From positions 1-55,129 of IMG/VR virus record IMGVR_UViG_3300005618_000021: a stretch of 55,129 bases of DNA; one strand, 5' to 3'. The stretch comes from a virus. Below the pieces are notes generated by a model. It searched no databases, had not been told where the DNA came from, and saw only the letters and a list, made by a program, of their open reading frames with translations. The position numbers were made by a program, and so were the translations under genes. Position 1 is the first letter of the stretch; each line of letters opens with the position of its first letter. Positions 21,683 through 53,984 of the stretch are shown here, one piece after another.

Positions 21683-21774
21683 CAGTAGGGCCGCGGCCTG
21701 GGCTTCGGCTTGGGTCGGGGTTTCGGCATGGGCTTGATCCGCTGTGGCTGAGTCGGGAATCGAACAAGGGTCAT
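21682..21774 (-). CDS. 30-residue Pro/Lys/Arg peptide, coupled on both sides
   Basis: Reads MTLVRFPTQPQRIKP followed by a KPRPKPKPRPRPY tail. ATG 21774 overlaps the aminotransferase stop (ATGA) and its own stop overlaps the connector ATG (TGATG), so it forms an unbroken translational chain. The basic polyproline tail could bind DNA or a structural partner. It may instead serve only to carry ribosomes from the inserted glycan island back to the connector gene. Confidence 0.5.
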   Translation of the reverse strand: MTLVRFPTQPQRIKPMPKPRPKPKPRPRPY

Positions 21775-22919
21775 GCGGGCACCAACTGACGGGCGTGCGC
21801 CCATTCGAGCACGGCGGCTACAACACGCGCACGATCATTGTTTGAGAGCCACCACCCGACCGGGATCGCCACCTCGTGCTCGGCGAACGCATCCACGCCG
21901 GGCAGTGGGCCATTGGGGTAGAAGAAGGCGGGGTGGGTGTCGTTGCGCCTGTGCACGGGACTTGCACTGATACCACGGCTGCTCAGATGATCGATCAATG
22001 ACGCTCGGTCATCGACCAGCACGCAGTACAGCCACCAGGACGAGCCGGGATCCTCAGGAGGCGAGGTGAGGCCCGGCACGTCCTGGAGCGCCTGCGAGTA
22101 CCAGACCGCGTTCTCACGATGCCTGGCCACAAGTTCTTGAACGTGCGGGATGTTGGCTAGCCCAATCGACGCCGCGATGTCGTTCATGTGGTACTTGAAC
22201 CCAACTTCACGAATGTCTTGAGAGCAGCGAAAGTCCGCGGATGAGGTGCGGTCGAGGCCGTACCAGCGCAAGAGCCGAGCGCGCTCGTACTGGTGCTCGG
22301 GGACCATGAGCGCGCCGCCATCTCCAGTGGTCAAATGCTTGATTGCCTGAAAGGACCACGCCACGTAGTCGCCGCGGTTGTTCGGATCGACGAACAGGTT
22401 GTGTGCGGCGTCCTGAATGACGGGCAGCAGCGGAACTATTTGCTTGACTGGTGCGCTGTCAATCGCCTGGCGGAGGGCCGCATAGTCACATGAGCGCCCC
22501 GCCCAGTCCACGGCCATGACGGCTCTAGTTCGGTGCGTAATCTTGTGGAGCACATCGGTCGGATCGATCAAGCCCGTGATTGGGTCGACGTCGGCCCAGA
22601 CAATCTTGGCACCACGATTGACGATGACCCCGTTCGTGGCCGTACACGTCATCGGCGTGGTGATCACTTCGCTGCCGAGTCCGACACCACACAGATGCAA
22701 GGCCAGGTCGAGCGCCGACGTACAAGAATTGAGCGCTAGTGGAGAAAGGGATGGTGGTGGCATCCCCACTAACTGCCCGAAGGCTTGCTCGAACTCCTGC
22801 ACGCGCGGCCCCTCGCCGAGATAAGAGCGTCCGCTCTCATCGGGAGTCAGCGTAGCGACAACCCGTTCTTTCGCTTCTGGTGCAACGAACGGACGGAACA
22901 AATCGATCACTGTGGCCAT
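21771..22919 (-). CDS. DegT/DnrJ/EryC1/StrS sugar aminotransferase
   Basis: 382 residues. PLP-fold landmarks: NSCTSALDLALHL near residue 65, VDPITGLIDP, AVDWAGRSCD, VIQDAAHNL (PLP-binding Asp) and WSFQAIKHLTTGDGG, whose Lys194 is the Schiff-base residue. Family members transfer an amino group from Glu or Gln to a keto group on a nucleotide sugar. It is the last gene of the second glycan island and follows the GNAT gene, a pairing that would make an N-acylated amino sugar. Confidence 0.9.
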   Translation of the reverse strand: MATVIDLFRPFVAPEAKERVVATLTPDESGRSYLGEGPRVQEFEQAFGQLVGMPPPSLSPLALNSCTSALDLALHLCGVGLGSEVITTPMTCTATNGVIVNRGAKIVWADVDPITGLIDPTDVLHKITHRTRAVMAVDWAGRSCDYAALRQAIDSAPVKQIVPLLPVIQDAAHNLFVDPNNRGDYVAWSFQAIKHLTTGDGGALMVPEHQYERARLLRWYGLDRTSSADFRCSQDIREVGFKYHMNDIAASIGLANIPHVQELVARHRENAVWYSQALQDVPGLTSPPEDPGSSWWLYCVLVDDRASLIDHLSSRGISASPVHRRNDTHPAFFYPNGPLPGVDAFAEHEVAIPVGWWLSNNDRARVVAAVLEWAHARQLVPA

Positions 22920-23308
22920 CTCCGGTAACCCGACTTCGCCTGAAACCCGATCTCTTCGTAAAACGACTGAGCGAGCGACGTGGACAACAGGTCAATCCTT
23001 GCCTTCGGAAACTCCTGCGCTACCGCATCGACCAACGCTCGACCTATCCCCTGGAACCGCGCATCGGTCGCCACGGCGAGCTCTGTCACGTACGAACACA
23101 CGTCGCCATCACTCAGGACGCGAATGAACCCCACGACCTTGTGCTCGGTGACCGCCACAAAGGCACAGCCCGTCTCTGCGGCCTCATTCAGCACGTCCTG
23201 CGAGGGAATCGCGTTCTCCTGCCAACCCGTGGACAACAACAGGTCGCGCACGGCAGCATCGTGCTCCTCTTCGTACTGCTGCACCACGTACACCACCGCA
23301 ACACTCAT
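22907..23308 (-). CDS. GNAT-family N-acetyltransferase
   Basis: 133 residues from ATG 23308, coupled to the glycosyltransferase stop. The GNAT core is present: CAFVAVTEHKVVGFIRVLSDG, then YVTELAVATDARFQGIGRALVDAVA (acetyl-CoA loop Q-x-x-G-I-G-x-A), then SFYEEIGF. Expected to acetylate an amine with acetyl-CoA. Position next to an aminotransferase suggests an amino-sugar nucleotide as substrate; antibiotic or protein acetylation is an alternative. Confidence 0.8.
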   Translation of the reverse strand: MSVAVVYVVQQYEEEHDAAVRDLLLSTGWQENAIPSQDVLNEAAETGCAFVAVTEHKVVGFIRVLSDGDVCSYVTELAVATDARFQGIGRALVDAVAQEFPKARIDLLSTSLAQSFYEEIGFQAKSGYRRWPQ

Positions 23309-24033
23309 ACGATCACCTCGGCCAAGCTGCGCCGCTCTGCGTACCACGTTGGACTGTAGATGCCCTGGTAGCCGGGATATGTCTCACGCCCGTGCTGCAT
23401 GGCCTTGTTCATCGCATTGAGTCGCGCGTAGTTCCGTCGATTGCGCTGAAGAAAATACTCCTGGCCGAGCCAGCGGTAGTGCAGCAGCCTCAGTGGATCA
23501 CTGCCATCGTCAGACACGGCACCCTCGACCTCGGCCGTATGTTTGCCCGTTGCCCATCGGACCTCGAGCGCGGGATCGAAGATGCAGACCTTCGAGTACG
23601 CATCGGCCTGAACCCCTGACTGAATCTCGTCGTAGATCTGACCCAGGCCAGTCGGCGGGTGGTCGGCCATCATGCTGTAGCCCGTCACGGTCGGGTAGTT
23701 CACGCCCGCCTGACGCAGCTCGACCAATCGCTCAGTCATCCGTGGGTGGTAGAGGATCTCGTCGGCGTCGGCCCAAACCACCCAGTCGGCATGCCCACGA
23801 GCCTCTCTGTAACGCTCCTGAGCGAACGCTACGAATGCAACGTCGTCCAGGTCGCTCGGGCCATAAGGACGCACCTCTGCCCCTTCCCTGCGCGCCAGCG
23901 TGGCCGTCCCGTCGTCCGACCCCAGATCGCAGTAGACGATGACCCGATCGCAGAACTCGCGATAGGCTCTAACCCAGTAGCGAATCAGCGGCGCTTCGTT
24001 ATAAGCCAGGGTCATTGCCCAGCACGTGGTCAC
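23305..24033 (-). CDS. Family-2-type glycosyltransferase
   Basis: 242 residues from GTG 24033 (GTGA overlap with the upstream gene). MTLAYNEAPLIRYWVRAYREFCDRVIVYCDLGSDDGT is the GT2 nucleotide-binding start, and DWVVWADADEILYHP carries the DxD motif near residue 85. The C-terminal HYRWLGQEYFLQRNRRNYARLN segment is typical of the related glycosyltransferase-2-like group. Cytoplasmic; donor and acceptor unknown. Confidence 0.85.
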   Translation of the reverse strand: MTTCWAMTLAYNEAPLIRYWVRAYREFCDRVIVYCDLGSDDGTATLARREGAEVRPYGPSDLDDVAFVAFAQERYREARGHADWVVWADADEILYHPRMTERLVELRQAGVNYPTVTGYSMMADHPPTGLGQIYDEIQSGVQADAYSKVCIFDPALEVRWATGKHTAEVEGAVSDDGSDPLRLLHYRWLGQEYFLQRNRRNYARLNAMNKAMQHGRETYPGYQGIYSPTWYAERRSLAEVIV

Positions 24034-24812
24034 ACGCGCCTCATGAAGAAGTCGGGGATGCGCCATGACTCGGGCGTCATGCCCGCGTAGCGATCGACGT
24101 CGAGCCGCATGCCATGATTCCACGCGTCGAGCAGAAAGCCCACGTCGAGCGGCACGGTGCCGCAGATACCGTTCGGGAACTCGGACTGCACGAGATTGAC
24201 CGTAGGAACCACGAGCCGAGAGCGCGCCCAGGTCCGCATCAATCGGGCATCCGTTTCGTCCTGCCAGCACCGTGAGCCGCGCTCCTCGAGTTGACTCGGC
24301 GAGTTAGCCTGCACGCGCGCGACCATGCGCTTGACGAAGTCGGTGCGATAAATGGTGCCGAGCACCTCCCATGGATAGCCCCAGTCACCCATGGCCCCGA
24401 CAACTGGCCAGGTCAAACTCTCGAGTGGTGGCTGCTGCATACCGTTGCCAAACATGTCACGCCTGATGTGATCGCCAAGTCGCAGCGACGTGCCAATCAC
24501 ATCAACTGGCATGGCAGAGGCATACACCACGTCCGTCAGCACCACGTCGTCACAGCCGAACATCGTGTAGTCCGTGTCGCCGAGCAGTGACTCGAGATCG
24601 GTCCGGAAGTCCTGCTCATGACAGAACTCGACTTGGGAAAACTCGGTTTCGACCTGGGCGTATGCGTCGGCAAACCACTGCGGCTGTGACTGCACCAACA
24701 CCTTGACCAACGCTGGCTCAGTGCAATGCTTGAAAAACGAGGTCAGATAACCATGTAACTGGAGCGGGCGGTCCTTGCTAAAGCAGATGACCTGAAGGTT
24801 AGGGTCGGGCAT
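24030..24812 (-). CDS. GT-A-like glycosyltransferase
   Basis: 260 residues. LQVICFSKDRPLQLHGYLTSFFKH opens like family-2 enzymes acting on short acceptors, and YTMFGCDDVVLTD near residue 85 replaces the canonical DxD with CDD. Later WPVVGAMGDWGYPWEV and NGICGTVP are not familiar. It overlaps FkbM by 14 bases and the next GT by four. I am confident of the fold class, less of activity. Confidence 0.7.
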   Translation of the reverse strand: MPDPNLQVICFSKDRPLQLHGYLTSFFKHCTEPALVKVLVQSQPQWFADAYAQVETEFSQVEFCHEQDFRTDLESLLGDTDYTMFGCDDVVLTDVVYASAMPVDVIGTSLRLGDHIRRDMFGNGMQQPPLESLTWPVVGAMGDWGYPWEVLGTIYRTDFVKRMVARVQANSPSQLEERGSRCWQDETDARLMRTWARSRLVVPTVNLVQSEFPNGICGTVPLDVGFLLDAWNHGMRLDVDRYAGMTPESWRIPDFFMRRV

Positions 24813-25437
24813 AAAGTGCGTCTGCGAACCCCATCATCTGGCTGCCCACGTAGGCATCCTGAATCGCCACGCGATCGAAGCCGAACCCGCCGAGGTACTC
24901 GTCCATATGCGGCACCAGGACACAGCCCTCGTACATCTCCTCGTGGTTCACCTCGGTATAGATCCAGCGCAAGCTTGGCATCACTGACGCCATGCCGCGT
25001 AGAACGTGCAGTTCGGCGCCCTCCACGTCCAGGTTGGCCATGTCGAACGCTGGCGATTCGCCGTGCTGCTCAAGCAACATATCGACCGTGGTCGTCATAT
25101 CCAGTTGCCTACCGATCTCAGGCATCGACGGATAGAAGTCGAGATGCCGTTTGAGCGGCAGAATTGACGACGCCATCGAGAACGTCGTCAGCCGTAAGGT
25201 CACCGGCTCGTCATTGACATCACTGACCGTGGCTTGTACGGCACGCTGGCCAGGAAATGACGCGACCTGTTCCTGAAGAGCCGGCATCAGGGCTTGATTC
25301 GCCTCGATCCAGAACACGCGCTCTACGCCCGCAGCCTGATAATCAGGTGCCTCTTCGGCAAGGTGGGCACCTACATGAAGGACCGCTTTCGGCTTCACGC
25401 CATAACCGTCCACCAATTGCGCCATAGCGATCAGCAT
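24799..25437 (-). CDS. FkbM-family methyltransferase
   Basis: 212 residues. KAVLHVGAHLAEEAPDYQAAGVERVFWIEANQAL is the SAM-binding start, MLLEQHG...FDMANLDVEGAELHVLRGM is the conserved FkbM central motif and YTEVNHEEMYEG follows. FkbM enzymes O-methylate sugars or polyketides. Lying between two sugar-modifying genes, it probably methylates a glycan or nucleotide sugar. Confidence 0.85.
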   Translation of the reverse strand: MLIAMAQLVDGYGVKPKAVLHVGAHLAEEAPDYQAAGVERVFWIEANQALMPALQEQVASFPGQRAVQATVSDVNDEPVTLRLTTFSMASSILPLKRHLDFYPSMPEIGRQLDMTTTVDMLLEQHGESPAFDMANLDVEGAELHVLRGMASVMPSLRWIYTEVNHEEMYEGCVLVPHMDEYLGGFGFDRVAIQDAYVGSQMMGFADALYARP

Positions 25438-26580
25438 TCAGTACGCCCTGAGAAAATCGCTCATGACCTCGCCCACGTACGCCGCGCCATCCTCGTCGTC
25501 GAATGATGACAGCCCAATATAAAACCCGTCCGTATGGATACGCTCCGCGCCTGGCAATCCGCTCGCGACAATCTTCGGGTGTTCACGCGCCACTGGTTGC
25601 TCCGCGAAGTTGCCCGCCACAATCGGTCGCGTCTCGACCCCGTGCGCATCGAGGTGACGGCACAAGTCGCGTTTCCAGAATGGGGCGTCTGGTGCGACCA
25701 TCAGCGGAAACCCATGCCACGCCGGCTCACACTCGGGCAGCACGGTGATCCCGCGCAGATACTGCGGCCACGCCTTGCTCGTGACTTCGGTCAGCCGATC
25801 GTAGTTTCGGGCTCGAGCCGCCCGAAAACCTTCGATCCGGGTCATCTGCACGTTGCCAAACGCGCCCTGAAGTTCTGTTGGCCGCACATTCAGGCCCCAC
25901 GTCGGGAACCAGAACGGGAAATCTGCCTTCGGCTCCCAGCCGTGCGATCGCCACAACCGATAGTCGCGTGCGTCCAATGGCGCGTCCGTGACCACCATGC
26001 CACCCTCCATCGTGTTCAGCAGGTGGCTGAAGAAAAAGCTAAACGCCGCGGCCTGGCCTAACGTCCCAACATGCTCCCCATGCCAGCGAGCCCCCATCGC
26101 CTCACAGCAATCCTCAAGGATCGGAACATCGACGTCGTCGAGATCGTCCAGGTTGCCAACGTTCCCCAGCACATGCACCAGAAATAGCGCCTGGGTGTGA
26201 ATGTTGGTCTTGTGCCGCATATCAGCAAAATCCATTTGCAGCGTGGCCGGATCAACGTCGACCAGACGCACCGTATATCCAGCCATGATGCACGACCAGA
26301 TCTGCGTCGGCCACGTCACCGCGGGTACCAGGATCTCGTCGCCTGGCTGGGCTGGCCCTAGACCGTGAGCAATAAGCAGATCTGCGCTCGAGCCGCTGTT
26401 GACCATGATCGCGTGCTGGCGCCCAACGTACGCTGCGAACGACCGCTCAAACTCACGAACAGCGGGGCCGCACGTGGTCTGGCCGGCGCGCAGCGTCATC
26501 ATGACCGCGGCCATCTCTTCGTCGCCATAACTCACGTGAGCGAGCGGGTAGCGTTTGGTCTTGGGCTCGCTCGCTACCAT
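25438..26580 (-). CDS. DegT-family PLP enzyme with catalytic His (ColD/3-dehydratase-like)
   Basis: 380 residues. Fold landmarks are MVNSGSSADLLIAHGLG, LVPAVTWPTQIWSCIMAG, VDVDPATLQMD, ILEDCCEAMGARW and AFSFFFSHLLNTMEGG. In ordinary aminotransferases that last motif has Lys four residues before [GM]EGG; here the residue is His186, just as ColD (GDP-4-keto-6-deoxymannose 3-dehydratase) has His188. Such enzymes remove a hydroxyl from C3 of a keto sugar with PLP and no Schiff base to the enzyme. The substrate may be a nucleotide hexose or heptose. Confidence 0.8.
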   Translation of the reverse strand: MVASEPKTKRYPLAHVSYGDEEMAAVMMTLRAGQTTCGPAVREFERSFAAYVGRQHAIMVNSGSSADLLIAHGLGPAQPGDEILVPAVTWPTQIWSCIMAGYTVRLVDVDPATLQMDFADMRHKTNIHTQALFLVHVLGNVGNLDDLDDVDVPILEDCCEAMGARWHGEHVGTLGQAAAFSFFFSHLLNTMEGGMVVTDAPLDARDYRLWRSHGWEPKADFPFWFPTWGLNVRPTELQGAFGNVQMTRIEGFRAARARNYDRLTEVTSKAWPQYLRGITVLPECEPAWHGFPLMVAPDAPFWKRDLCRHLDAHGVETRPIVAGNFAEQPVAREHPKIVASGLPGAERIHTDGFYIGLSSFDDEDGAAYVGEVMSDFLRAY

Positions 26581-26581
26581 G

Positions 26582-27412
26582 TCAGAACCTCACGAGTTGA
26601 ATCGGCTCGGGATACATGTCCGGCAGGTCGAGCTCGACCTGCAACGGCTTGTCGATGAACTGGTAGACCGGCCCACCCAGATCTTTCTCAGCGATGCCCG
26701 TCACACCCCTCACAAAATTCCAGATGATCACGCCATGCTCGCACTTGCTAGCCACATGCTCCGCGTACCAGTCACGCGTCTCCATGTCGAACTCTGAGAA
26801 GGCATAGGCACTGAACAGGAAGCGGGGCGCTTCGCTCGCATCCAGCGCCAGCGCGACGCCCAGCGGATCGAGGCCGTCCATCGCCTTGATCGGCACCCCC
26901 AACGCCACCGCGAGCCGCTTCTGGATCACGATCGCCTCGGGCAAGTCGATAATGGTGTAGCGGTCAATGATCACGTCAGGAAACAACTGGCTCAGCCGGT
27001 CAACGTAGAGCGCCAGGCCACCGTAACCGCCGCCGATCTCGATCACGTGCATGCGTGTCATACCGACCTCGGCCGCATGCGTCCATAGCCGTAGCGCCTG
27101 ACTCAAATAACGCATATTCGAGGGCGAGCACGTTAGATCTACCTCGCGGAACGTGTCCTGAACGGGCTTGCCGTAGCGGTCGTTCTCCGCGGCAATGACC
27201 GGCAAGAGCCGCACTGCATCCGACCAGTACGCGGAATACTCCCTCTGGATGTGGTCGAGAAACCTGATGGCCTGGTAATGGTCGACGTGCTCCAGAACGC
27301 GCTGGTAGCGCAGATCTGACTTGAACGTCCACTCGTGCGGCTTCTGTGCCGCGGCCTCGTGCAACACATCACGATAGCTGGTGTAATTGCTGGTTGGCGT
27401 GGGTGCGATCAT
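26582..27412 (-). CDS. Putative sugar O-methyltransferase
   Basis: 276 residues. MHVIEIGGGYGGLALYVDRL near residue 120 is the SAM-binding glycine loop; YTIIDLPEAIVIQKRLAV supplies the acidic strand, and FLFSAYAFSEFDMETRDWYAEHV belongs to the putative sugar O-methyltransferase family seen in O-antigen clusters. Coupled to GT2 by ATGA. It probably caps or decorates a sugar made by neighbouring enzymes. Confidence 0.8.
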   Translation of the reverse strand: MIAPTPTSNYTSYRDVLHEAAAQKPHEWTFKSDLRYQRVLEHVDHYQAIRFLDHIQREYSAYWSDAVRLLPVIAAENDRYGKPVQDTFREVDLTCSPSNMRYLSQALRLWTHAAEVGMTRMHVIEIGGGYGGLALYVDRLSQLFPDVIIDRYTIIDLPEAIVIQKRLAVALGVPIKAMDGLDPLGVALALDASEAPRFLFSAYAFSEFDMETRDWYAEHVASKCEHGVIIWNFVRGVTGIAEKDLGGPVYQFIDKPLQVELDLPDMYPEPIQLVRF

Positions 27413-27999
27413 CCTGGCCGTGCCCTTGCCACAAACTCGTTGATCCAGATCGCTTTCTCCACGCCACCGAAGTTCTCGACCGTGCTCGCCACGTAATCAA
27501 AATCTCCCGTGTAGTCGCACGTCCAACTGCCGATCTTGTCGGGCACGTTCGGCGTGACCAGGCAATGACCGCCAATGTGGTTCCGTTCCATGTTGCCCGC
27601 GAAGTCCCAGAAATCGAGGCCGAAGTACGAGTGGAACCGGAACAGCAGTGCGTACTTATCTGGGTAGACTGTCACGCTCCTGCGCATCAGCGCGACCGCG
27701 TCAGGCGTCCACACGTCATCGTCGTCGTTGCAGTGAATGTAGTCACCCTTCGCGTGGCTGATGCCGTAGTCAAGTTGGTGATGGCCAAAACAATGATGGC
27801 CGGCGTCGAGGCTCAGGTATCGAAACCGCGAGCCGTAGCTCTGGACCCACGCCTCAACCCGCGGCAACGGTCCGTCGTGCACGTCACCGACCACGATCAC
27901 CTCGTCCGCAGGATCGAGTTGGCCCGCGAGACTCGACAGGCAACGCGTCAACGGCCGGTCATCCCGATGCGTCGGGACAATGAACGTGAACGATGGCAC
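27409..27999 (-). CDS. Family-2 glycosyltransferase
   Basis: 196 residues from GTG 27999, one base after the preceding stop. SFTFIVPTHRDDRPLTRCLSSL and HAKGDYIHCNDDDDVWTPDAV (metal-binding acidic cluster near residue 95) mark a GT-A enzyme. It is short for the family and lacks a C-terminal extension. First gene of the second glycan island, immediately after capsid-associated genes. Confidence 0.85.
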   Translation of the reverse strand: MPSFTFIVPTHRDDRPLTRCLSSLAGQLDPADEVIVVGDVHDGPLPRVEAWVQSYGSRFRYLSLDAGHHCFGHHQLDYGISHAKGDYIHCNDDDDVWTPDAVALMRRSVTVYPDKYALLFRFHSYFGLDFWDFAGNMERNHIGGHCLVTPNVPDKIGSWTCDYTGDFDYVASTVENFGGVEKAIWINEFVARARPG

Positions 28000-28000
28000 C

Positions 28001-28246
28001 TTATTTCTTGTCAGACGCCTTCGACTCGTCCTCAGGCTCAGCCGGTTTGGCCTCACCTTTGCCGAGCGTGATCACGCCGGCTGACTCGCGCCACTGGGCG
28101 TTACGCTGGTTCCAGACGTAGATTTTGCCGCCGCTGTCGACCACATAGTCGCGGTTCGCAGCCTGCGACAAGTCCTGATCGGTCGACGCGTCGGCAACGT
28201 ACTGCCCGTTCGCGTCGTACAGACTCACGATGTACCCGTCAGCCAT
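28001..28246 (-). CDS. Small capsid-region protein with charged tail
   Basis: 81 residues. DGYIVSLYDANGQYVADAST and YVVDSGGKIYVWNQRN form a small beta domain; the last 25 residues are Lys/Glu/Pro-rich and probably disordered. ATG 28246 overlaps the upstream gene. Located after the major capsid genes, it may be a head decoration protein. Inference only. Confidence 0.6.
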   Translation of the reverse strand: MADGYIVSLYDANGQYVADASTDQDLSQAANRDYVVDSGGKIYVWNQRNAQWRESAGVITLGKGEAKPAEPEDESKASDKK

Positions 28247-32017: not shown

Positions 32018-32239
32018 ATGGATACATGCCCAAACTGTCTCCACGACAACGACATGCACTACGCGCCTGATGGACCAGGAACCCGAGTCGTTTGCGTCGA
32101 CGGCTATCGCGATCCTCTGTGGGGGACTACAACCGACTGCGATTGTGTCATGGTCCCGCCGTGCTGCATCGCAGACCGATGCCTTGGCCTTAGTGCCAGA
32201 CACACCTGCTGCATCTGTTTAGGCAGTAGCGAGGACTAG
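32018..32239 (+). CDS. Rightward Cys-rich small protein
   Basis: 73 residues reading against the operon. CPNCLHDNDMHYAPDGPGTRVVC and later DCDC, PPCC, CCIC give many paired cysteines, a likely zinc-binding module of a kind seen in short phage proteins beginning C-x2-C-x-H-D. The 3' end overlaps the end of the glycosyltransferase gene by 21 bases. A leftward frame over the same bases lacks such order, so this strand is preferred. Modest confidence. Confidence 0.45.
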   Translation: MDTCPNCLHDNDMHYAPDGPGTRVVCVDGYRDPLWGTTTDCDCVMVPPCCIADRCLGLSARHTCCICLGSSED

Positions 32240-33340
32240 TCGCGGCTTCGCGCGGAACCGCTCAATTGCATCGAGCCACGCCAGTGGCCAGTTCTGCCAA
32301 TTCTTCTCTAGCGTGTATTTCTCCATCACGGTGCGCCGCGCGTTCCGACTGATCGTCCTGCGCAACTCGGCATCTTCGATCAGCCGGCTCAACGCCTCGA
32401 CGATCTGCTCTGCTGTCTCGGCAACCAGCGCGTCCTCGCCATCGGTCACTTCCGCACCATAAAGCGTCGGGCTGACAACACACGCCACACCGGCCAGCGT
32501 CATCTCGTACCACTTGATGCACGTCTTCGACGTGTTGAACACCAGCGGCGCGACGATGCAACAACCAATGTCGAGGTTGATCAGCGCTCGCGGGTACTCT
32601 TCCAGGGACAGCCACGGCAGCGAGTGGCGCCGTTCGTCTGGGATCGAGTGGTACAGCGAATCGCTCATGTGACCCTGAATCACGAACTCCACGTGCGGGT
32701 AGCGCTTGGCGATGATCGTCCACGCCTCGGCGAGTGGCTTCATGTCGGCCTCTTCGCGCGCCCCGCCAGCCCAACCAACCGTCAACTTGCCTTCGAGCTC
32801 GGGAATGCGCCCAATACCACGGAGCGTGGCCTTGAACCACCTGGCGTCAATGCTGTTCGGGATGTGGTAGACCGGCGTATCCGCGGGCGCGTACTGGCGC
32901 GCAATCGTCGCCAGACGCCGACTCGACACCGTGACGCCGTCGCACACACTCAGCATCTTGATGCGTTCGTTGCGTTCCCACTCGAGCTGTTTCTCACCTT
33001 TGGCGGCTTCCGCGGGAAAGACGCGCATCTGACGATCGACGATCCTGGGCGAGAAGATGTCGTCATCGATCTCGTACAGCCAGGCTAGACCGGCTTTATG
33101 AATGACGTTGACCCATGCCTCGCCAATTCCTTCGACTGGCCAGACGATGCGCGGCGTAATGACAGCGTCATACCGGCCCTGCGCAACCAGCGGCAGCACC
33201 TTGTCCGAATCGTTCTTGTGGCACCACTCGGCGATGTACCCACGCTGCTCGAGTTCTCGGAACGGCTGCCAAATTCTCCAAAGTGAGCAACCTGTCTCGT
33301 CGCCGCAGAGCGCGAGAACGCGAGGTGCGCGACCGAGCAC
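32219..33340 (-). CDS. GT-B fold (GT4-like) glycosyltransferase
   Basis: 373 residues from GTG 33340, with GAGGTG close upstream. VLALCGDETGCSLWRIWQPFRELEQRG at the N-terminus, YHIPNSIDARWFK near residue 165, TVGWAGGAREEADMKPLAEAW, then FNTSKTCIKWYEMTLAGVACVVSPTLYG and DALVAETAEQIVEAL are the order found in GT4-type enzymes. It stands alone between a minor head gene cluster and the prohead protease, with its own gap upstream. Confidence 0.88.
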   Translation of the reverse strand: MLGRAPRVLALCGDETGCSLWRIWQPFRELEQRGYIAEWCHKNDSDKVLPLVAQGRYDAVITPRIVWPVEGIGEAWVNVIHKAGLAWLYEIDDDIFSPRIVDRQMRVFPAEAAKGEKQLEWERNERIKMLSVCDGVTVSSRRLATIARQYAPADTPVYHIPNSIDARWFKATLRGIGRIPELEGKLTVGWAGGAREEADMKPLAEAWTIIAKRYPHVEFVIQGHMSDSLYHSIPDERRHSLPWLSLEEYPRALINLDIGCCIVAPLVFNTSKTCIKWYEMTLAGVACVVSPTLYGAEVTDGEDALVAETAEQIVEALSRLIEDAELRRTISRNARRTVMEKYTLEKNWQNWPLAWLDAIERFRAKPRLVLATA

Positions 33341-34777: not shown

Positions 34778-36263
34778 TGACGAGTTTCGCCGTGATGCGT
34801 TTGTGCTGGCCGTTCTGGAGTTTCGTCAGGTCGTCGGCAAAGTCGCCCGCTGCTTGATCCACGATACTCTGCACCACCTGAGCAAACACGTCGCCGCGCG
34901 CCTTCCCGCCCGGAGGTGTCGCAGGCTGCACAGGAGACGCACCAGGTGGTAACGCTGGCGGAGGAGCCGGTGGCAGCATCGAATCAGCTACGGTCACCAG
35001 CGTCCCGCCAGACGCCAGGAACAGCGTATCGTCGGGCGGCAGATCAGAGTCGTAGCCCAGGCCGCGCAAGGCCATCTCGCGTGTGATCACGCCGGCCTTG
35101 TAATCCTCGCGGAGTCGCAGGTGCTTCGCGTTCTCGTCCTCTTGCAGCGACCGCACCTGACTCAGATCGTGGGCGATCACCGTTCTACGATCGCTCGTAA
35201 AGTCGGGCTTGAGTTTCCGGTTCCACTTGGCCTCGTCCATGATCCACTGCGGGACCACGGTCAACTCCGTAAAGTTCTCGCGAACCTGGCGAGCGCTGGC
35301 GTAGTTGCTCGTTTGCTCGAGTCCGACCCCGAGCCGCGCCACCAACGGGTCAACGCCCATCACCGCGGCAATCCGTGTCTCAGGAACGTCATGTAGCGTT
35401 TTCAGGTTCATCTGGTCAGGAGTGAAACCGAACTGCGTCATATCCGCGCCACCGGACAAGACACCAACTCGACCGCGGTTCTCGCCACTGAATGAGTTAG
35501 CAATATTCGCCTTGAGCTCTTCGATCTGCTTGGGCGACAGCATGGTTTCGGCAGGCAACTTGGCCACCAGGCCCGGCGTACCAAAATTCCTGAGCAGTGC
35601 GTCCGCGTAGCGTGTCGCCTCGCCATCACTGGCGATCTCACGAATCAAGCGTTTGAGTGGCGCAATGCCCTTGCGCGTGTCGTACGGATCCACCCCCAGC
35701 TTGAAGTGGATCACGTTCTCTACCGGGATCTGCTCGGGCGGGCCACCGTTGTACCGGTCGAGCTCGTACCAATCAATAAAGTTGTTCGAGCCGCGTTCCG
35801 TGTGTGGTCGCATGCGCGTCGGGCTGATCGGCCACAACTCGACCGGCAGGCCCGTGTTCACGTTGCCTGACCGTACTTTGAGCACATAGGCATTGCCGTC
35901 AATATGACGTGCCCAGGTCGCCCACCAGCGGATCTCGTCCAGGTCTAATTCTGGGTGCGGCTCGTCGAACAGGTCGAGGATGGGACTCTCGAACACTGGC
36001 TCGCGCTCATGCTTATCGTCGATCGTCCACACGCGCAGCGGCGCCTCGATACTGGCGTATGCGAGCGCACGAAGGCAGGCAAACACGGCCGAATTGCCGT
36101 CACCCTGATAGTCCTCGCCGTACGGGACCGTGTTCGCGGTGTAGACGAGATGATTGACGTAGCTCCAGTTGACCGTAGCATCAAGCGGCGTGAATTTTTG
36201 TTGCCGCTGTGGCAGGTAGTCACCCGAGAGTGCCGACAAGGCCGCCCGGAAGATATTCGGCAT
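34764..36263 (-). CDS. HK97-family portal protein
   Basis: 499 residues from ATG 36263; GGAGGTG lies eight bases upstream, better than GTG 36272. GDGNSAVFACLRALAYASIEAPLRVW, LPVELWPISPTRMRPH, IPVENVIHFKLGVDPYDTRKGIAPLKRLIREIASDGEATRYADALLRNFGTPGLV and FTPDQMNLKTLHDVPETRIAAVMGVDPL are all portal hallmarks. The Pro/Ala-rich linker near residue 430 is also usual. Unusually it is separated from terL by the heptose cassette. Confidence 0.95.
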   Translation of the reverse strand: MPNIFRAALSALSGDYLPQRQQKFTPLDATVNWSYVNHLVYTANTVPYGEDYQGDGNSAVFACLRALAYASIEAPLRVWTIDDKHEREPVFESPILDLFDEPHPELDLDEIRWWATWARHIDGNAYVLKVRSGNVNTGLPVELWPISPTRMRPHTERGSNNFIDWYELDRYNGGPPEQIPVENVIHFKLGVDPYDTRKGIAPLKRLIREIASDGEATRYADALLRNFGTPGLVAKLPAETMLSPKQIEELKANIANSFSGENRGRVGVLSGGADMTQFGFTPDQMNLKTLHDVPETRIAAVMGVDPLVARLGVGLEQTSNYASARQVRENFTELTVVPQWIMDEAKWNRKLKPDFTSDRRTVIAHDLSQVRSLQEDENAKHLRLREDYKAGVITREMALRGLGYDSDLPPDDTLFLASGGTLVTVADSMLPPAPPPALPPGASPVQPATPPGGKARGDVFAQVVQSIVDQAAGDFADDLTKLQNGQHKRITAKLVNGTR

Positions 36264-36304
36264 GTTTGCCACCTCCGGGCAGGATTCGGGAGTAAAATGA
36301 CGAG

Positions 36305-36535
36305 GTGATACCTCGTTGGTTCCATTGGATTTGGGCCGTCGTGAACGGTTACTTCTGGTTACCGTGCCGCATCTGCGGCCGGATGTTCGGCGGCCATGAA
36401 AGCGTCGGTCAGACTGTCACGGAAGACGGTACCCTGTGGCCCTCGTGCAGCCTGCACCCGTGGAAGACGGGCCGCGACCCATGGTCAATCGACGCGGCAT
36501 CTGCCCGCCGGGAATGGGCTAACCAGAACCACTAA
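36305..36535 (+). CDS. Rightward small Cys/Trp protein
   Basis: 76 residues. FHWIWAVVNGYFWLPCRICGRMFGGHES...WPSCSLHPWK is a recognisable type of small phage protein with Cys-x2-Cys...Cys-x2-H and many Trp residues. It lies between the divergent portal start and the convergent transaldolase end (four-base overlap), directly at a border of the heptose cassette. Probably zinc-binding; role unknown. Confidence 0.6.
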   Translation: MIPRWFHWIWAVVNGYFWLPCRICGRMFGGHESVGQTVTEDGTLWPSCSLHPWKTGRDPWSIDAASARREWANQNH

Positions 36536-37155
36536 GTCGTCTTTACTAGTGCGCTCGCGTCCCGCAAGAACTGACTAACCGCCTCGTCGGTCTTGGGATG
36601 TTGGCACAGCAGCGGTAAAAACTGCGGCGGCACGGTCACGATATCCGCGCCCGCCTGAATCGCTTCGTTCACGTCGATCATCTGGCGGATGCTGCCGACG
36701 ATGATCTCGGTCGGGCACTTCCAGCGGTCGAAGGTTTCGCGCACCTGGCGCACCACCGTCGCCGCGTCCTGGCCAGTGTCGCGAATGCGGCCCCAGAACA
36801 GACTGACGTAGTTGGCACGAGCGTTCGCGGCCATAATCGCCTGGTTGTAGGACATGCACGCCGTGACGTTGACTTTGACGTTGTCGCGGCGCAATCGGTG
36901 AACGATCGATAGTTCGTCCCAACCGATCGGCACCTTGAACACGAGTCCAGCGTAACCGTAGTCATTGAAGTCCTCGGTCACCTGAACACTCAGCGGGATA
37001 GTGTCCCCGTAACGACGCAGGAGCCTGATGATGTCCTCGATCGAGCCTTGATCCTTGGCCATGATCGACGGATTCGTGGTCACGCCACGGACGACACCAC
37101 GCTGGAGCGCCGCCTCAATGTCCTCCAAGTTGGCCGAGTCGATGAAGAGCTTCAT
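36532..37155 (-). CDS. talC: Transaldolase / fructose-6-phosphate aldolase-like
   Basis: 207 residues from ATG 37155, overlapping gmhA (ATGA). MKLFIDSANLEDIEAALQRG and GVTTNPSIMAKD start the barrel; GLVFKVPIGWDE contains the Schiff-base Lys; NVTACMSYNQAIMAANA and EIIVGSIRQM follow. This is the short TalC type also carried by cyanophages. Next to gmhA its likely service here is to supply sedoheptulose 7-phosphate. It could instead feed the pentose phosphate pathway during infection. Confidence 0.88.
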   Translation of the reverse strand: MKLFIDSANLEDIEAALQRGVVRGVTTNPSIMAKDQGSIEDIIRLLRRYGDTIPLSVQVTEDFNDYGYAGLVFKVPIGWDELSIVHRLRRDNVKVNVTACMSYNQAIMAANARANYVSLFWGRIRDTGQDAATVVRQVRETFDRWKCPTEIIVGSIRQMIDVNEAIQAGADIVTVPPQFLPLLCQHPKTDEAVSQFLRDASALVKTT

Positions 37156-37712
37156 TGCAAGGCCGGATGCCAGACGAGGAGATGGCACAACACGCTCTGG
37201 AACGATTCGGCGTGTGGCGTCACGTGCTCCTCATTCACTGTTGGCACCACCACATAAGCGTTCGCAACGCGTTGGATGTAGCCCTTCTCTCTGCCCACGA
37301 TCCCCGCAATCCACGCTCCTCGAACTAGCGCGTAGTCAAGCGCAGGAATCAGGTTTGCACTGGTCGTACTGGTCCCGCCACCGACCGACAATGCAACCAC
37401 CATGTCATCCGCGCCCAGATGGCTTGTTTTGAGCCAACTGGCGAACACGGTGTGCCAGCCGACATCATTGGTTTGCGCTGTAAGTTCAGCCACGTTGTCG
37501 GTCGGGGCGTACGCTTCGATCCCGGCGATCTTGCGCAGATCGTTGACGAAGTGCGAGGCGTTGGCGGCACTGCCACCATTGCCGAGCACAAACACTCGCC
37601 CGCCCACAGCTTTCGTTTGAGCCAGCAGGCTGGCGCACGCGTCGATCTGGTCGGCGTCGAGCGCTTTCGCGATGGCGGCAACCTCATCCAGGTACGAGAT
37701 CGTGAACGACAT
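37152..37712 (-). CDS. gmhA: Sedoheptulose-7-phosphate isomerase (SIS domain)
   Basis: 186 residues from ATG 37712. VFVLGNGGSAANASHFVNDLRK is the GmhA phosphate-binding motif; TDNVAELTAQTNDVGWHTVFASWLK and ALSVGGGTSTTSANLIPAL are the remaining SIS parts. GmhA turns sedoheptulose 7-phosphate into D-glycero-D-manno-heptose 7-phosphate. Overlaps hddC by 29 bases and talC by four. Confidence 0.88.
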   Translation of the reverse strand: MSFTISYLDEVAAIAKALDADQIDACASLLAQTKAVGGRVFVLGNGGSAANASHFVNDLRKIAGIEAYAPTDNVAELTAQTNDVGWHTVFASWLKTSHLGADDMVVALSVGGGTSTTSANLIPALDYALVRGAWIAGIVGREKGYIQRVANAYVVVPTVNEEHVTPHAESFQSVLCHLLVWHPALQ

Positions 37713-38355
37713 ACCGCCTGAACGCTGCCAACCCCTCGAGCGAGCCGATCTCGTAAACGGGCTCGGTGACTTCGTAGCCAGCGAGTCGGTCTTCGTCTGC
37801 GAGATCCCCAAACACCTCCCCGAGACCTGAACTTACGTGCCGTCTGAATATGTCAGGCTCAAAGAGCGAGAACCCAGCATCACCACAATTGCCGTGACCG
37901 TAGCCGTAGACCGTTTCATCCTCATAGATCACGTTCTTCCGACCAGGGCAACGAACGGCCATCATGGCGTCAGCGTCTCGGTACTGGAACGCTTTGTACG
38001 CCTTCATCAAGTCGTAGAGCGGATACACGTCGCCATACAGCACGCCGAACTGGCTGCCCAGGCGCGGCAACGCCTTCCGAATCGCGCCGGCCGTACCGAG
38101 CAGCTCCGGCCCATCGAACGAATACTCGATCTCAAGCCCGAACTGCTTGCCCGTGCCAACGTGCCCCTTGATCTGCTCGCCGAGATAGCCGGTGCACAGC
38201 ACGACTCGCTCGATGCCCTGACTGGCAATGAGTTCTAGTTGCCAGTCGATGAACGGTTTCCCGTCCACCTCAACCAGCGACTTGGGCACCGTGTCGGTAA
38301 GTGGTTTCAGTCGCGTCCCGAGCCCGCCGCACAGGATCGCCACGGTCAGGCTCAC
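37684..38355 (-). CDS. hddC: Heptose-1-phosphate nucleotidyltransferase, HddC-like
   Basis: 223 residues. LTVAILCGGLGTRLKPLTDTVPKSLVEVDGKPFIDWQLELI is the nucleotidyltransferase signature, LLGTAGAIRKALPRL the sugar-phosphate region and VLYGDVYPLYDL the metal-binding Asp. Between gmhA and a GHMP kinase it best fits HddC, which makes GDP-D-glycero-alpha-D-manno-heptose. Exact nucleotide is inferred. Confidence 0.82.
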   Translation of the reverse strand: MSLTVAILCGGLGTRLKPLTDTVPKSLVEVDGKPFIDWQLELIASQGIERVVLCTGYLGEQIKGHVGTGKQFGLEIEYSFDGPELLGTAGAIRKALPRLGSQFGVLYGDVYPLYDLMKAYKAFQYRDADAMMAVRCPGRKNVIYEDETVYGYGHGNCGDAGFSLFEPDIFRRHVSSGLGEVFGDLADEDRLAGYEVTEPVYEIGSLEGLAAFRRYVVHDLVPG

Positions 38356-39296
38356 GACGCAACAACTCGCGCGCCGTCGAAGTCAAACCGGAACCGCACC
38401 TCGCGCAACCCCGCCTCACACATTTCTCGCCGGAGTGGTCCCTTCTGTTCGGCGTAAAACAACAAGAACCCGCCGCCGCCAGCACCAACGAGTTTCCCGC
38501 CGAGCGCGCCGTTCTCCAGCCCAAGCGTGCGCCATCGCTGGATATCCTCACTCGCTGGTGTGCGCTGATGCTTGGTGGCCCACTGTCCGTTCATCTGATC
38601 GGCGAAGAAGTCGAGCTCGCCGCTCTCAAGTGCTCGGACCGCCAACATGGCCACAAGGGCATCCGCCCCACCATATGGCATTGTGCTGGCGCCAAGGATC
38701 TCCGCGGCCTTTCGCGTGTGCCCGGTGAAGAACAACAGCAAGTTGTCTTCTAGGTCCGCCAACGTATCGGCTCGTAGGTTCAGGCCAGCAGCACACACCT
38801 GACCGTCTTGCATGAACGACAGCATCGTAATGCCACCGAGCGCCGCGATGTACTGATCTTGCTTACCAATGGGCTGCTCCAGCGCGTCGATCTCGATCTG
38901 ACACGCTTCCTCGGCGAGTTGCTGCGGCGAGCACGTCTGACGCTGGTATGTATGGAGCGCGAGCAGCAGCGCGACCGTAAAACTCGACGACGAACCGAGT
39001 CCGGTGCCGGCTGGAATATCGGCGTGGCTGCAAATCTCCAGGCCGCGGCCATCAACGCCAACCAGACGCATCGTCTCGCGCACGATCGGGTGCTCGACGT
39101 GCTCGGCGTCCTTGACGCGTTCCATCTTGCTGTACTTGACGATCAGGTCGTCGACGAACGTCTCATGAATCGTGATCGTGACGTACTTGTCGATTGCCGC
39201 CGCGAGACAATGGCCGCCGAACTTCTCGTAGTAGGCAGGGATGTCCGTGCCACCACCACCAAGCGTGATCCTGAGCGGCGCTCTGGCAATGATCAC
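38352..39296 (-). CDS. hddA: GHMP heptose kinase, HddA-like
   Basis: 314 residues. N-terminal IARAPLRITLGGGGTDIPAYYEKFGG, central ADIPAGTGLGSSSSFTVALLLAL (ATP loop) and C-terminal KLVGAGGGGFLLFYAE are the three GHMP motifs, and the first is that of D-glycero-D-manno-heptose 7-phosphate kinase. In the GDP-heptose route it makes the 1,7-bisphosphate. The phosphatase GmhB is not present, so the host may supply it. Confidence 0.88.
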   Translation of the reverse strand: MIIARAPLRITLGGGGTDIPAYYEKFGGHCLAAAIDKYVTITIHETFVDDLIVKYSKMERVKDAEHVEHPIVRETMRLVGVDGRGLEICSHADIPAGTGLGSSSSFTVALLLALHTYQRQTCSPQQLAEEACQIEIDALEQPIGKQDQYIAALGGITMLSFMQDGQVCAAGLNLRADTLADLEDNLLLFFTGHTRKAAEILGASTMPYGGADALVAMLAVRALESGELDFFADQMNGQWATKHQRTPASEDIQRWRTLGLENGALGGKLVGAGGGGFLLFYAEQKGPLRREMCEAGLREVRFRFDFDGARVVAS

Positions 39297-39508
39297 GTAT
39301 CAACGCCGACTGGATCGCGATACTTGATCTCTCGTGCGGCGCCGGCTAGCACCGCTGCGAGTTTGAACGCGCCATCGGCGGTCATGCAGATACTGAAAGT
39401 CTGACCTTCACTGACCATCCGTAAGCACACCGTGTCGTCATCAACATCGCGCATGACCGCTAGCACGCCGCCTGGGAGCCGCGCCGACCAGTGCCGTGAC
39501 GTTGTCAC
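39293..39508 (-). CDS. Small protein inside heptose cassette
   Basis: 71 residues from GTG 39508 (GTGA overlap with the SDR). VLAVMRDVDDDTVCLRMVSEGQTFSICMTADGAFKLAAVLAGAAREIK is a compact beta-beta-alpha domain. Coupled to hddA by ATGA. The gene at 40205-40480 has a similar position after a sugar enzyme. Function unknown. Confidence 0.55.
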   Translation of the reverse strand: MTTSRHWSARLPGGVLAVMRDVDDDTVCLRMVSEGQTFSICMTADGAFKLAAVLAGAAREIKYRDPVGVDT

Positions 39509-40215
39509 GCCGGCACCACCCTTCGCATGCGGTAGTCATCCTTGCCCAACTCGCCCAGGTGCTCCCAATCGTCCCACACCGCGCTGAACAACCGACCGCT
39601 GATCCCGTCACTGCGCGAGGATGCCAGAATCGCTATCAGGTCGACCGCTCGCTGCATCGCAGCGTCAGGATCGTCTGGTAGCGCCGCGCGTAACCGCATG
39701 CGCGTATTGAGCGTGCCAGGGGCCACCGCGTTGACATCGATCCCCGTATCAGCCAGGTCGATGGCGAGCGCTTCGGTGAATCGCAGCAGGCCCGCCTTCG
39801 ACGTGTTGTACGCCGTACATTCGGGATGTGGCCGCACGCCCGCACCCGAGACGTTGATGATCTTGCCGTGGCCTTGCTTGCGCATGATCGGCAAGACAGC
39901 GCGACAGCAAATCACTGCGCCAATAAGGTTAATACGAATAGCCTCCAGCCATTCGAGCCAATTGATTTCATCGATTTGGCCGACCGGACCATAAATGGCC
40001 GCATTGTTGACTAGCACGTCGATTCGACCATTGATCTCGATGATGTTGTCAACCATATCGTCAACATCACAATGCAGCCCCACGTCGCATTGGTACGTAG
40101 TGTCGCCATGCCTCGAGCACGTAATAACCGTGTGTGTCTGCGCGAGATGATTTGCCACGGCCGCGCCCAGGCCCATGCTGCCGCCGGTGACGAGCGCGAC
40201 CGGCTTATCCGTCAA
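39505..40215 (-). CDS. Short-chain dehydrogenase/reductase
   Basis: 236 residues from TTG 40215, at a 13-base repeat. VALVTGGSMGLGAAVANHL (cofactor loop), DVLVNNAAIYG, KIINVSGAG (Ser) and AYNTSKAGLL (Tyr and Lys) form a complete classical SDR catalytic set; VAPGTLNTRM follows. NAD(P)-dependent oxidation or reduction of a sugar intermediate is likely from context. The sugar is not identifiable. Confidence 0.85.
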   Translation of the reverse strand: MTDKPVALVTGGSMGLGAAVANHLAQTHTVITCSRHGDTTYQCDVGLHCDVDDMVDNIIEINGRIDVLVNNAAIYGPVGQIDEINWLEWLEAIRINLIGAVICCRAVLPIMRKQGHGKIINVSGAGVRPHPECTAYNTSKAGLLRFTEALAIDLADTGIDVNAVAPGTLNTRMRLRAALPDDPDAAMQRAVDLIAILASSRSDGISGRLFSAVWDDWEHLGELGKDDYRMRRVVPA

Positions 40216-40216
40216 A
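40204..40216 (-). repeat. 13-base gene-junction repeat, copy 2
   Basis: Minus-strand TTTGACGGATAAG. It ends the small gene (FDG-stop) and contains TTG ACG GAT AAG, the start of the SDR (L-T-D-K). Copy 1 is at 40469-40481. Confidence 0.8.
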
Positions 40217-40480
40217 AGCACGGTCCTCGCGAACCTCGGTGACGATAATGATGTAGCGCTTACCGTTGATCCCGATCTGCATATCTGCTCGATGCCCGTC
40301 GTCACGAATGCCGCTACTGCTGGTCATGTGCTGGACTAACGTTTCGATTGGATGCCAGTGCGAACTGATCCACGCATCCATGACAGACGCGAGCAACTGG
40401 CTCGCTCGTGGTACACCGCCGAGTTCGAGATCGCGATAACAAGACGGAATGTCACTCGGCGCTACGTACTTATCCGTCAA
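40205..40480 (-). CDS. Small protein after the epimerase gene
   Basis: 91 residues from TTG 40480 (no ATG or GTG fits better; the start is provisional). LELGGVPRASQLLASVMDAWISSHWHPIETLVQHM is helical; QIGINGKRYIIIVTEVRE is a beta hairpin. It ends FDG-stop, exactly like the epimerase upstream. Function unknown. Confidence 0.5.
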   Translation of the reverse strand: MTDKYVAPSDIPSCYRDLELGGVPRASQLLASVMDAWISSHWHPIETLVQHMTSSSGIRDDGHRADMQIGINGKRYIIIVTEVREDRAFDG

Positions 40481-40481
40481 A
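40469..40481 (-). repeat. 13-base gene-junction repeat, copy 1
   Basis: Minus-strand TTTGACGGATAAG. It ends the epimerase gene (FDG-stop) and contains TTG ACG GAT AAG, the proposed start of the small gene. Identical to the junction at 40204-40216, 265 bases away. Confidence 0.8.
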
Positions 40482-41369
40482 TGACGCGACCGTCCTGAGC
40501 ACGGCGTCCTTGATCGAGACGGTAGGCGTCCAGCCAAGCGACAACAACCGCGTGCAGTCCAGCAGTGTCAGCCGTTTGTCGCCCACCCAACTGGTGCCAG
40601 TGTACACCCGTTCAGGCTCGATATTGAGCGATTCGCACAACCAGCTGAGCGACTCATTCACCGTGCACGATTGGTAGTGCCCAACGTTGAAAATCCGCAC
40701 CGGCTCGCTCGAGTCATCCAGCCCGGCGTGCAGGACCGCTTCGACCACATCGCTGACGTAGATGTACGACCTGCGCTGCTCGCCGTCGCCGAGCACCTCG
40801 ATGCGAGTCGGATCGTGCTTGAGCTTCTGCCAGAAGTCGTACAGGTGGCCGCGGTGGTAGCCCTCGCCCAACACTGGCGCGAACCGGAAGATGGTTGCCT
40901 GCAGGTCGTAACTACGAGCGTACGCCGCGATCAAGGATTCCGCAGCCAGCTTGCTCGCACCGTACAGCGACGTCTGGATCGGCATCGGGCAATCCTCAGG
41001 AGTCGGAAACGTCGAGGTATCGCCGTAGACCGCACTCGTCGAACTGAAGGCGATCCGTTGCACATTGGTCGCCCGCATCACCTCGAGCACGTTCTGCGTC
41101 GCGATAACGTTCGCTTCGATTGGTACTCGCGGGTCAGTGCCCAACCGGACCGTCGCGTCACCGGCCAAGTGAAACACCATGTCCTGGCTGGCCATGGCCC
41201 TGGTCAACGTCTGACGATTCATCAGATCGTCATCGTTCGCCAGGTCGTACACCGTCACAGACTGGCCTATAGCTTCTAACCGCCGCACAAGGTGACGGCC
41301 GATAAAGCCCGCGCCGCCAGTGACCAGGACTCTACTTATGGGCGCTTCCTCGGATGCTTTACCACCCAT
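40470..41369 (-). CDS. NAD-dependent sugar epimerase (extended SDR, GalE-like)
   Basis: 299 residues. RVLVTGGAGFIGRHLVRRLEA (cofactor loop), MVFHLAGDATVRLGTDP, IAFSSTSAVYGDTSTFP and LYGASKLAAESL (Tyr-x3-Lys) then FRFAPVLGEGYHRGHL and RRSYIYVSDVVEAVLHAG mark a nucleotide-sugar epimerase. The STSAVYG motif lacks the T-[DE]-E of 4,6-dehydratases, so an epimerase or reductase is more likely. First sugar gene after terL. It overlaps the 62-residue gene by 34 bases. Confidence 0.88.
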   Translation of the reverse strand: MGGKASEEAPISRVLVTGGAGFIGRHLVRRLEAIGQSVTVYDLANDDDLMNRQTLTRAMASQDMVFHLAGDATVRLGTDPRVPIEANVIATQNVLEVMRATNVQRIAFSSTSAVYGDTSTFPTPEDCPMPIQTSLYGASKLAAESLIAAYARSYDLQATIFRFAPVLGEGYHRGHLYDFWQKLKHDPTRIEVLGDGEQRRSYIYVSDVVEAVLHAGLDDSSEPVRIFNVGHYQSCTVNESLSWLCESLNIEPERVYTGTSWVGDKRLTLLDCTRLLSLGWTPTVSIKDAVLRTVASFDG

Positions 41370-41524
41370 GACCTACAATCAACGCACTGCACGGTACGCA
41401 AGTTATATGGGCGTGATGCGGTAGCCGCAGCGACCGCCTGGGCTTCTTCTCGGTTAGCAAACGACCGACTGTGTGGCCAGCGACATACTAGAGATTTGAT
41501 AAGTGGCCGCCATTTCTCAGGCAT
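41336..41524 (-). CDS. Small zinc-finger-like protein downstream of terL
   Basis: 62 residues; ATG 41524 shares one base with the terL stop. KWRPLIKSLVCRWPHSRSFANREEAQAVAAATASRPYNLRTVQCVDCRSWVVKH has a C...H...C-x2-C layout known from short phage proteins that read ...YxCxxCxxWHL at the end. Probably a small zinc-binding accessory. Role unknown. Confidence 0.65.
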   Translation of the reverse strand: MPEKWRPLIKSLVCRWPHSRSFANREEAQAVAAATASRPYNLRTVQCVDCRSWVVKHPRKRP

Positions 41525-53907: not shown

Positions 53908-53984
53908 TTGTAAACAGCCGCTAATCTCTCGTTGCTCAATCGTGACTGCCTGAGTTCTAGTCAACGACCGTTCGTCTAGTGAAC
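53908..53984. other. Repressor-integrase gap with imperfect dyad
   Basis: About 70 bases. CTAGTCAACGACCGTTCGTCTAG at 53957-53979 has matching CTAG and ACGA/TCGT arms that overlap the integrase GTG. It could be an att core or control site; no proof of either. Confidence 0.3.

Follow-up and report, generated by a model that had tools for sequence, protein, structure and literature searches.

Why would a phage carry, in the middle of its packaging genes, a block of enzymes for making an activated sugar? The question is raised by IMG/VR record IMGVR_UViG_3300005618_000021, analysed here over its complete length of 55,129 bases (the window), in which a minus-strand cassette spanning 36.5-41.4 kb sits inside the packaging genes, between terL (41524-43074) and the portal gene (34764-36272). 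It encodes a nucleotide-sugar epimerase, a short-chain dehydrogenase (SDR), an HddA-like GHMP kinase, a nucleotidyltransferase, a GmhA-like isomerase and a TalC-like transaldolase, together with two small open reading frames (ORFs). The account that we prefer, and hold to be on balance probable, is that in this cassette the phage carries its own copy of a Chloroflexota-type activated-heptose operon, whose sugar is most likely put on a virion protein while particles assemble in the cytoplasm. This suggests that the phage and its close relatives make heptose themselves to coat their own particles.

A conserved cassette within the packaging genes

The six enzyme genes and two small ORFs that a preliminary description had placed between terL and portal as one coupled operon were all recovered by ORF, Pfam, NCBIfam and PHROG matches, every enzyme clearly matching a Pfam family (the weakest, GmhA, at E 1e-9). 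Four junctions carry 4-nt overlaps, namely those between SDR and a 71-amino-acid (aa) ORF (39505/39508), that ORF and the kinase (39293/39296), kinase and nucleotidyltransferase (38352/38355), and GmhA and TalC (37152/37155), so that translation of the cassette genes is probably coupled, as had been claimed. Several starts probably lie inside their frames: at about 37712 for GmhA, at 37155 for TalC, at about 40221 or 40215 for the SDR, and at a point giving about 70 aa for the small ORF at 40205-40537. A scan of the cassette region for promoters and terminators found sites no more numerous than in shuffles, that is, at chance level.

An independent contig from another metagenome (L022/L037) is 100% identical to the window cassette. 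The preliminary description had proposed a search for the same cassette between terL and portal in related phages, and this search found it, in identical order and in the identical slot, in the diverged relatives L039, L041 and L044 (the last a partial contig) and in the partial contigs L040 and L042. An assembly chimera is ruled out by the identical contig and the diverged relatives together. When the window is compared with L039, L041 and L044, all six enzyme genes are under purifying selection, with ratios of nonsynonymous to synonymous substitution (dN/dS) of 0.12-0.38: GmhA 0.12-0.15, kinase 0.14-0.16, epimerase 0.18-0.25, nucleotidyltransferase 0.20-0.31, SDR 0.25-0.27 and TalC 0.35-0.38, against 0.08-0.13 for the portal gene. 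The two small ORFs are real as open frames, but we reject them as conserved parts of the cassette, since relatives hold other small ORFs or none at these places; the 71-aa ORF occupies the slot held by a MocA oxidoreductase in the bacterial operon described below.

The cassette is absent from the terL-portal slot of L024-L029, L031 and L043, whose terL or portal is 57-75% identical, and no such kinase was found in two long cassette-free records, G002 (78 kb) and G003 (50.5 kb). The slot of L024 is filled by a predicted 691-aa protein with a signal-like start (L024, 11990-14065); the slot therefore takes varied cargo. At the start of L038 (1-945) TalC precedes portal, yet a small unrelated ORF lies upstream in the place of GmhA, and the cassette of this contig appears to be rearranged or reduced.

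A Chloroflexota operon with the same gene order

A genome scan with the kinase first gave a Chloroflexi genome (L006) holding kinase, GmhA, a GmhB-type phosphatase, TalC, epimerase and nucleotidyltransferase in one cluster. Of 350 Chloroflexota genomes, 13 have TalC and an HddA-like kinase on one contig and within 7 kb of each other, these cases including nine of the 12 best TalC matches; with one or two kinase genes per several-Mb genome, simple arithmetic puts the chance expectation for this pairing well under one. GmhB is present in 11 of the 12 Chloroflexota regions fetched. In L070 and L075 the order is epimerase, nucleoside-diphosphate (NDP)-sugar dehydrogenase, SDR, Gfo/Idh/MocA oxidoreductase, kinase, nucleotidyltransferase, GmhA, GmhB and TalC, and the L069 operon matches it from the dehydrogenase onward. 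The phage cassette has the genes and order of these operons minus the dehydrogenase, the MocA protein and GmhB, all three of which are kept in L069, L070, L072 and L075. Identity, order and conservation of the phage genes, and their homology to a complete bacterial operon, are thus evident at the level of sequence comparison.

The identity of the phage kinase to the Chloroflexota operon kinases reaches 61-62%, and that of phage TalC to Chloroflexota TalC 65-68%. In trees, the phage kinases are sister to those of L069/L070 (support 0.66), phage GmhA groups with ten Chloroflexota operons (support 1.0), phage TalC falls in one group with L069/L070, and the phage nucleotidyltransferase joins those operons with weak support (0.38). 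The simplest account of these sequences would be capture of a Chloroflexota-type operon by the phage, followed by loss of the dehydrogenase, MocA and GmhB genes. Such an order-preserving match to a cellular operon, new here, is a pointer both to the source of the cassette and to a possible host group, from which we infer Chloroflexota hosts. A host assignment via prophages was tried and dropped: portals from Chloroflexota show no more than about 36% identity, and the cassette is missing from all three prophage-like loci that were examined.

A proposed heptose route and the likely destination of its product

The idea of a nucleotide-heptose route, advanced in the preliminary description, is well supported by heptose-pathway structures and by the GmhB-containing Chloroflexota operon, while GDP as the nucleotide, completion of the route and a working TalC are conjectural. 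In a structural comparison, likewise proposed there, the solved proteins nearest to kinase and isomerase were heptose-pathway enzymes. The kinase has matches in 4usm/4usk, 3k85 and 4n3o, annotated as sugar or heptose kinases, and both its best family and its best structures are of HddA type; GmhA, a member of the SIS fold family, best matches solved phosphoheptose isomerases. The GGxGTRLxP...PK signature of the nucleotidyltransferase is intact, the Schiff-base Lys of TalC is retained, and the metal-site positions of phage GmhA (His, Asp, Glu, His) do not vary in alignment A3 and occur throughout the viral set. The corresponding ligands of characterised GmhA are His, Glu, Gln and His, so that the phage enzyme differs at two positions.

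On the proposed route, TalC would convert fructose 6-phosphate and erythrose 4-phosphate into sedoheptulose 7-phosphate, GmhA would isomerise this to D-glycero-D-manno-heptose 7-phosphate, the kinase would add a phosphate at C1, a host HAD phosphatase standing in for the missing GmhB would remove the 7-phosphate, and the nucleotidyltransferase would yield an NDP-heptose (GDP likely). The epimerase and SDR would act in later modification of the NDP-heptose, and, while virions assemble in the cytoplasm, soluble glycosyltransferases would attach the heptose to one of their proteins. The operon resembles the GDP-D-glycero-alpha-D-manno-heptose pathway of Campylobacter, Burkholderia and others (GmhA, HddA, GmhB, HddC) in joining a GmhA-like isomerase, an HddA-like kinase and a nucleotidyltransferase of NTP_transferase fold. 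It differs in lacking GmhB, in a nucleotidyltransferase nearer MurU, in its GmhA metal site, in missing all family cut-offs, and in the addition of TalC, whose supply of sedoheptulose 7-phosphate lies outside the classical definition of that pathway.

We regard the virion as the most likely destination because the cassette is coupled to packaging and head genes, with which it would presumably be expressed late, and because soluble glycosyltransferases lie beside the portal and capsid genes. Mycobacteriophage capsids and tail tubes are glycosylated by phage-encoded glycosyltransferases, according to Freeman et al. 2023 as cited in PMC12363180. Like mycobacteriophages Che8, Corndog and Myrna, the window phage has glycosyltransferases of its own, a GT4 and two GT2-type proteins encoded beside portal and capsid genes, with action on capsid or tail only proposed in its case; unlike them, it also carries most of the route to an unusual sugar nucleotide.

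It is less likely, in our judgement, that phage-made NDP-heptose feeds a host surface glycan and so alters the surface in infection or lysogeny, through receptor masking or superinfection exclusion. Such a role would fit the setting of the related bacterial operons, which sit among surface-polysaccharide-like genes (large membrane proteins and GT2 glycosyltransferases, in L006 also chain-length/tyrosine-kinase-like and UDP-glucose-dehydrogenase-like proteins), and it would suit a phage that is probably temperate, given an integrase (53979-55073) and a repressor-like helix-turn-helix gene at the right end of the record. The cassette, however, is part of the late packaging module, which lies well away from integrase and repressor. 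Seroconversion cassettes, by contrast, are not known to lie inside the packaging module; those of gtr type have an integrase/att-side location and GtrA/GtrB-type membrane proteins, neither of which is seen here. Among the window genes scanned, several clear transmembrane stretches occur only in the tape measure, the sugar genes have no clear one (a single marginal peak appears in the SDR), and no GtrA/GtrB-like, flippase, polymerase, export or polymer-linking proteins were seen. Position, the adjoining soluble glycosyltransferases and this lack of sugar-export proteins therefore lead us to favour virion glycosylation over remodelling of the host surface.

Several observations nevertheless weigh against a complete heptose route of Chloroflexota origin. 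No cassette enzyme comes near an NCBIfam equivalog cut-off (the kinase scores 130 bits with a cut-off of 600, GmhA 57 bits with a cut-off of 209), so that all must be remote members of their families. The signature of the nucleotidyltransferase does not reveal its nucleotide, which is likely GDP, and by score the enzyme is nearer UDP-type MurU (111 bits) than HddC (75 bits). The lack of GmhB, already pointed out in the preliminary description, held up: sequence and hidden Markov model searches of the window record found neither GmhB nor another HAD-IIIA phosphatase hidden elsewhere, five other cassette-bearing records gave no HAD-IIIA match above cut-off, and cassettes near the window type in L101, L103 and L107 are likewise without GmhB. 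TalC of this particular genome may be impaired, because it has Gln where relatives have Glu, at the position of catalytic Glu60 of the Thermoplasma acidophilum enzyme (variant E60Q/F132Y of that transaldolase is PDB 4xz9), and because it lacks 12 residues found in the 87% identical TalC of L038, a deletion that the relatives do not share. Its AlphaFold2 model (predicted local distance difference test, pLDDT, 83) keeps the barrel and lacks the helix between strands 3 and 4. A dN/dS of 0.09 between the window and L038 implies that the gene was constrained until recently, and TalC of the relatives looks intact. Finally, the donor search was deep in Chloroflexota only, and another donor is possible.

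Some of these features would also fit enzymes that are homologous to the heptose route and act on another phosphosugar, giving a different activated sugar, which we think improbable. The MurU-leaning score, the missed cut-offs, and the Asp and Glu of GmhA in place of Glu and Gln all point that way; on the other side, many loci, cellular as well as viral, bring GmhA, kinase, GmhB and TalC together, and in other viral clusters these genes are accompanied by an RfaE-like heptose-1-phosphate adenylyltransferase.

A scan of viral contigs with the GmhA alignment gave 235 relatives. Among 78 of the kept loci that were examined, with co-occurrence counted within the fetched flanks, TalC is found in 70, a GmhB-like match in 67, a kinase match in 62 and an RfaE-type motif in 32. 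Grouped at 70% GmhA identity, the 78 loci form 19 clusters, and TalC-bearing members occur in 18 of them. In L135 (6974-11853) an RfaE-like adenylyltransferase is followed by a further gene, GmhA, GmhB, TalC, a glycosyltransferase-like gene and the kinase, an order that recurs in other loci of the L102-L175 series, some on contigs longer than 100 kb. We tentatively propose that many phages make activated heptose via a bacterial TalC-GmhA-(GmhB)-HddA operon and coat virion proteins with it, TalC serving there as a heptose-supply enzyme and not as a pentose-phosphate booster.

The recurrent viral GmhA-TalC-HddA clusters are also new here: no description of a viral TalC-GmhA-HddA operon was found in the open-access literature (subscription papers were mostly outside the search). 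The gene gmhA itself figures among listed viral auxiliary genes (PMC9238414). Phage-borne sugar genes are likewise found in Caulobacter phage Cr30 and in the lipopolysaccharide clusters of cyanophages, the latter of unknown use (PMC3037559). The Cr30 cluster comprises epimerase, GT2, kinase and isomerase, with an annotated heptose kinase and isomerase near the glycosyltransferase; in the stretch examined there is no TalC, and the kinase is about 36% identical to that of the window. On another phage contig, L003 (1-13267), two proteins with long repeats of Ser-Pro-Ser type, which could be targets of glycosylation, flank genes for an HddA-like kinase, a SIS isomerase, an RfaE-like nucleotidyltransferase and several glycosyltransferase-like proteins. 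A few phages are known to glycosylate their virions, and talC of phages is read as a pentose-phosphate gene; the recurrent operon offers an alternative, testable role for this much-discussed auxiliary gene, ties viral TalC to heptose synthesis in addition to its known role, and suggests that some phages carry most of the route to an unusual sugar nucleotide.

For the window itself we give very little credence to a metabolic auxiliary set in which TalC and the other enzymes redirect the pentose phosphate pathway in the way suggested for talC of cyanophages. The cyanophage gene, also a phage-borne TalC-type transaldolase, is assigned to that pathway and found with cp12 and, in some phages, zwf and gnd (PMC3037559). 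GmhA adjoins only 8 of 76 sampled viral TalC loci, the other 68 having no GmhA of this type nearby, and most phage TalC must therefore occur in other contexts. Window TalC, in contrast, shares its operon with GmhA, kinase and nucleotidyltransferase, as in Chloroflexota, and the record showed no cp12, zwf or gnd. An 'aldolase' near a kinase in cyanophage Bellamy is not TalC-like by eye, has no TalC match and was left out of the counts. That the sugar goes onto modified bases of phage DNA is hardly credible: phage glycosyltransferases can act on DNA (Pyle et al. 2024, as cited in PMC12619734), but the proteins scanned include a plain DNA methyltransferase and no base hydroxymethylation or hypermodification gene. 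A DNA methyltransferase-like protein (PHROG 757) is encoded at 49141-50076, in the presumed early region.

A probably older sugar module beside the head genes

The structural module holds three identified glycosyltransferases (GT4 and two of GT2 type), one possible further one and aminosugar genes, most of them in a second sugar cluster that follows the capsid gene (21771-28056; Table 1). GT4 is 62-93% identical in cassette-bearing and cassette-free relatives and hence conserved across the phage clade. Cassette-free relatives keep a smaller set of GT4, GT2a, an SDR, a GNAT-like gene and AT1 beside equivalent head genes, so the aminosugar-type module of the structural region is probably older in this clade than the heptose cassette; both modules are present in L039 and its record G004. 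For u260, the viral contig scan gave no matches and the AlphaFold2 model was too poor for use (pLDDT 36.5).

Table 1. Sugar-related genes and associated small ORFs of the window
Feature	Position	Strand	Evidence
Nucleotide-sugar epimerase/dehydratase (extended SDR, GalE-like)	40470..41369	-	Pfam PF01370 E 5e-48; PDB 3ehe E 5e-61; YxxxK present
Small ORF	40205..40537	-	Frame about 70-110 aa; no Pfam, NCBIfam or PHROG match; absent in relatives
Short-chain dehydrogenase (SDR)	39505..40305	-	Pfam PF00106 E 8e-41; homologue at equivalent place in Chloroflexota operons
71-aa ORF	39293..39508	-	Overlaps both neighbours by 4 nt; no Pfam, NCBIfam or PHROG match
HddA-like GHMP sugar kinase	38352..39296	-	NCBIfam HddA NF049969 E 1e-37, below cut-off; PDB 4usm, 3k85, 4n3o
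Sugar-1-phosphate nucleotidyltransferase (HddC/MurU type)	37684..38355	-	MurU E 5e-32, HddC E 7e-21, both below cut-off; PDB 4y7t, 6jq8
GmhA-type sedoheptulose-7-phosphate isomerase (SIS)	37152..37712	-	TIGR00441 E 2e-15; PDB phosphoheptose isomerases
TalC/FSA-type transaldolase	36532..37155	-	TIGR00875 E 4e-40
GT4 glycosyltransferase	32219..33340	-	Pfam; PHROG 7162; between portal and protease
GT2a, GT2 glycosyltransferase, cluster core	27409..28056	-	PF00535 E 1.5e-14; also in outgroups
MT2, possible sugar O-methyltransferase	26582..27412	-	No family match; GGGYGG motif by eye; homologue in L039
AT2, DegT/DnrJ sugar aminotransferase	25438..26580	-	PF01041 E 2e-68
FkbM methyltransferase	24799..25437	-	PF05050 E 1e-9
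u260, possible glycosyltransferase	24030..24812	-	No family match; 77-78% identical in L039
GT2b, GT2-like glycosyltransferase	23305..24270	-	PF13704 E 3e-12
GNAT acetyltransferase	22907..23347	-	PF13508 E 1e-13
AT1, DegT/DnrJ sugar aminotransferase, PseC-like, cluster core	21771..22919	-	PF01041 E 3e-65; TIGR03588 E 1e-47, below cut-off; in outgroups

Two further observations concern the surrounding structural genes. Directly after the capsid gene lies an HNH endonuclease gene (28788-29699) that is not at this place in L039 and is perhaps a mobile insertion. In the tail region, the protein encoded at 10319-10945 is 98% identical to one in G004 (L093, 14346-14846), while several of its neighbours are 30-50% identical, which suggests a recent exchange.

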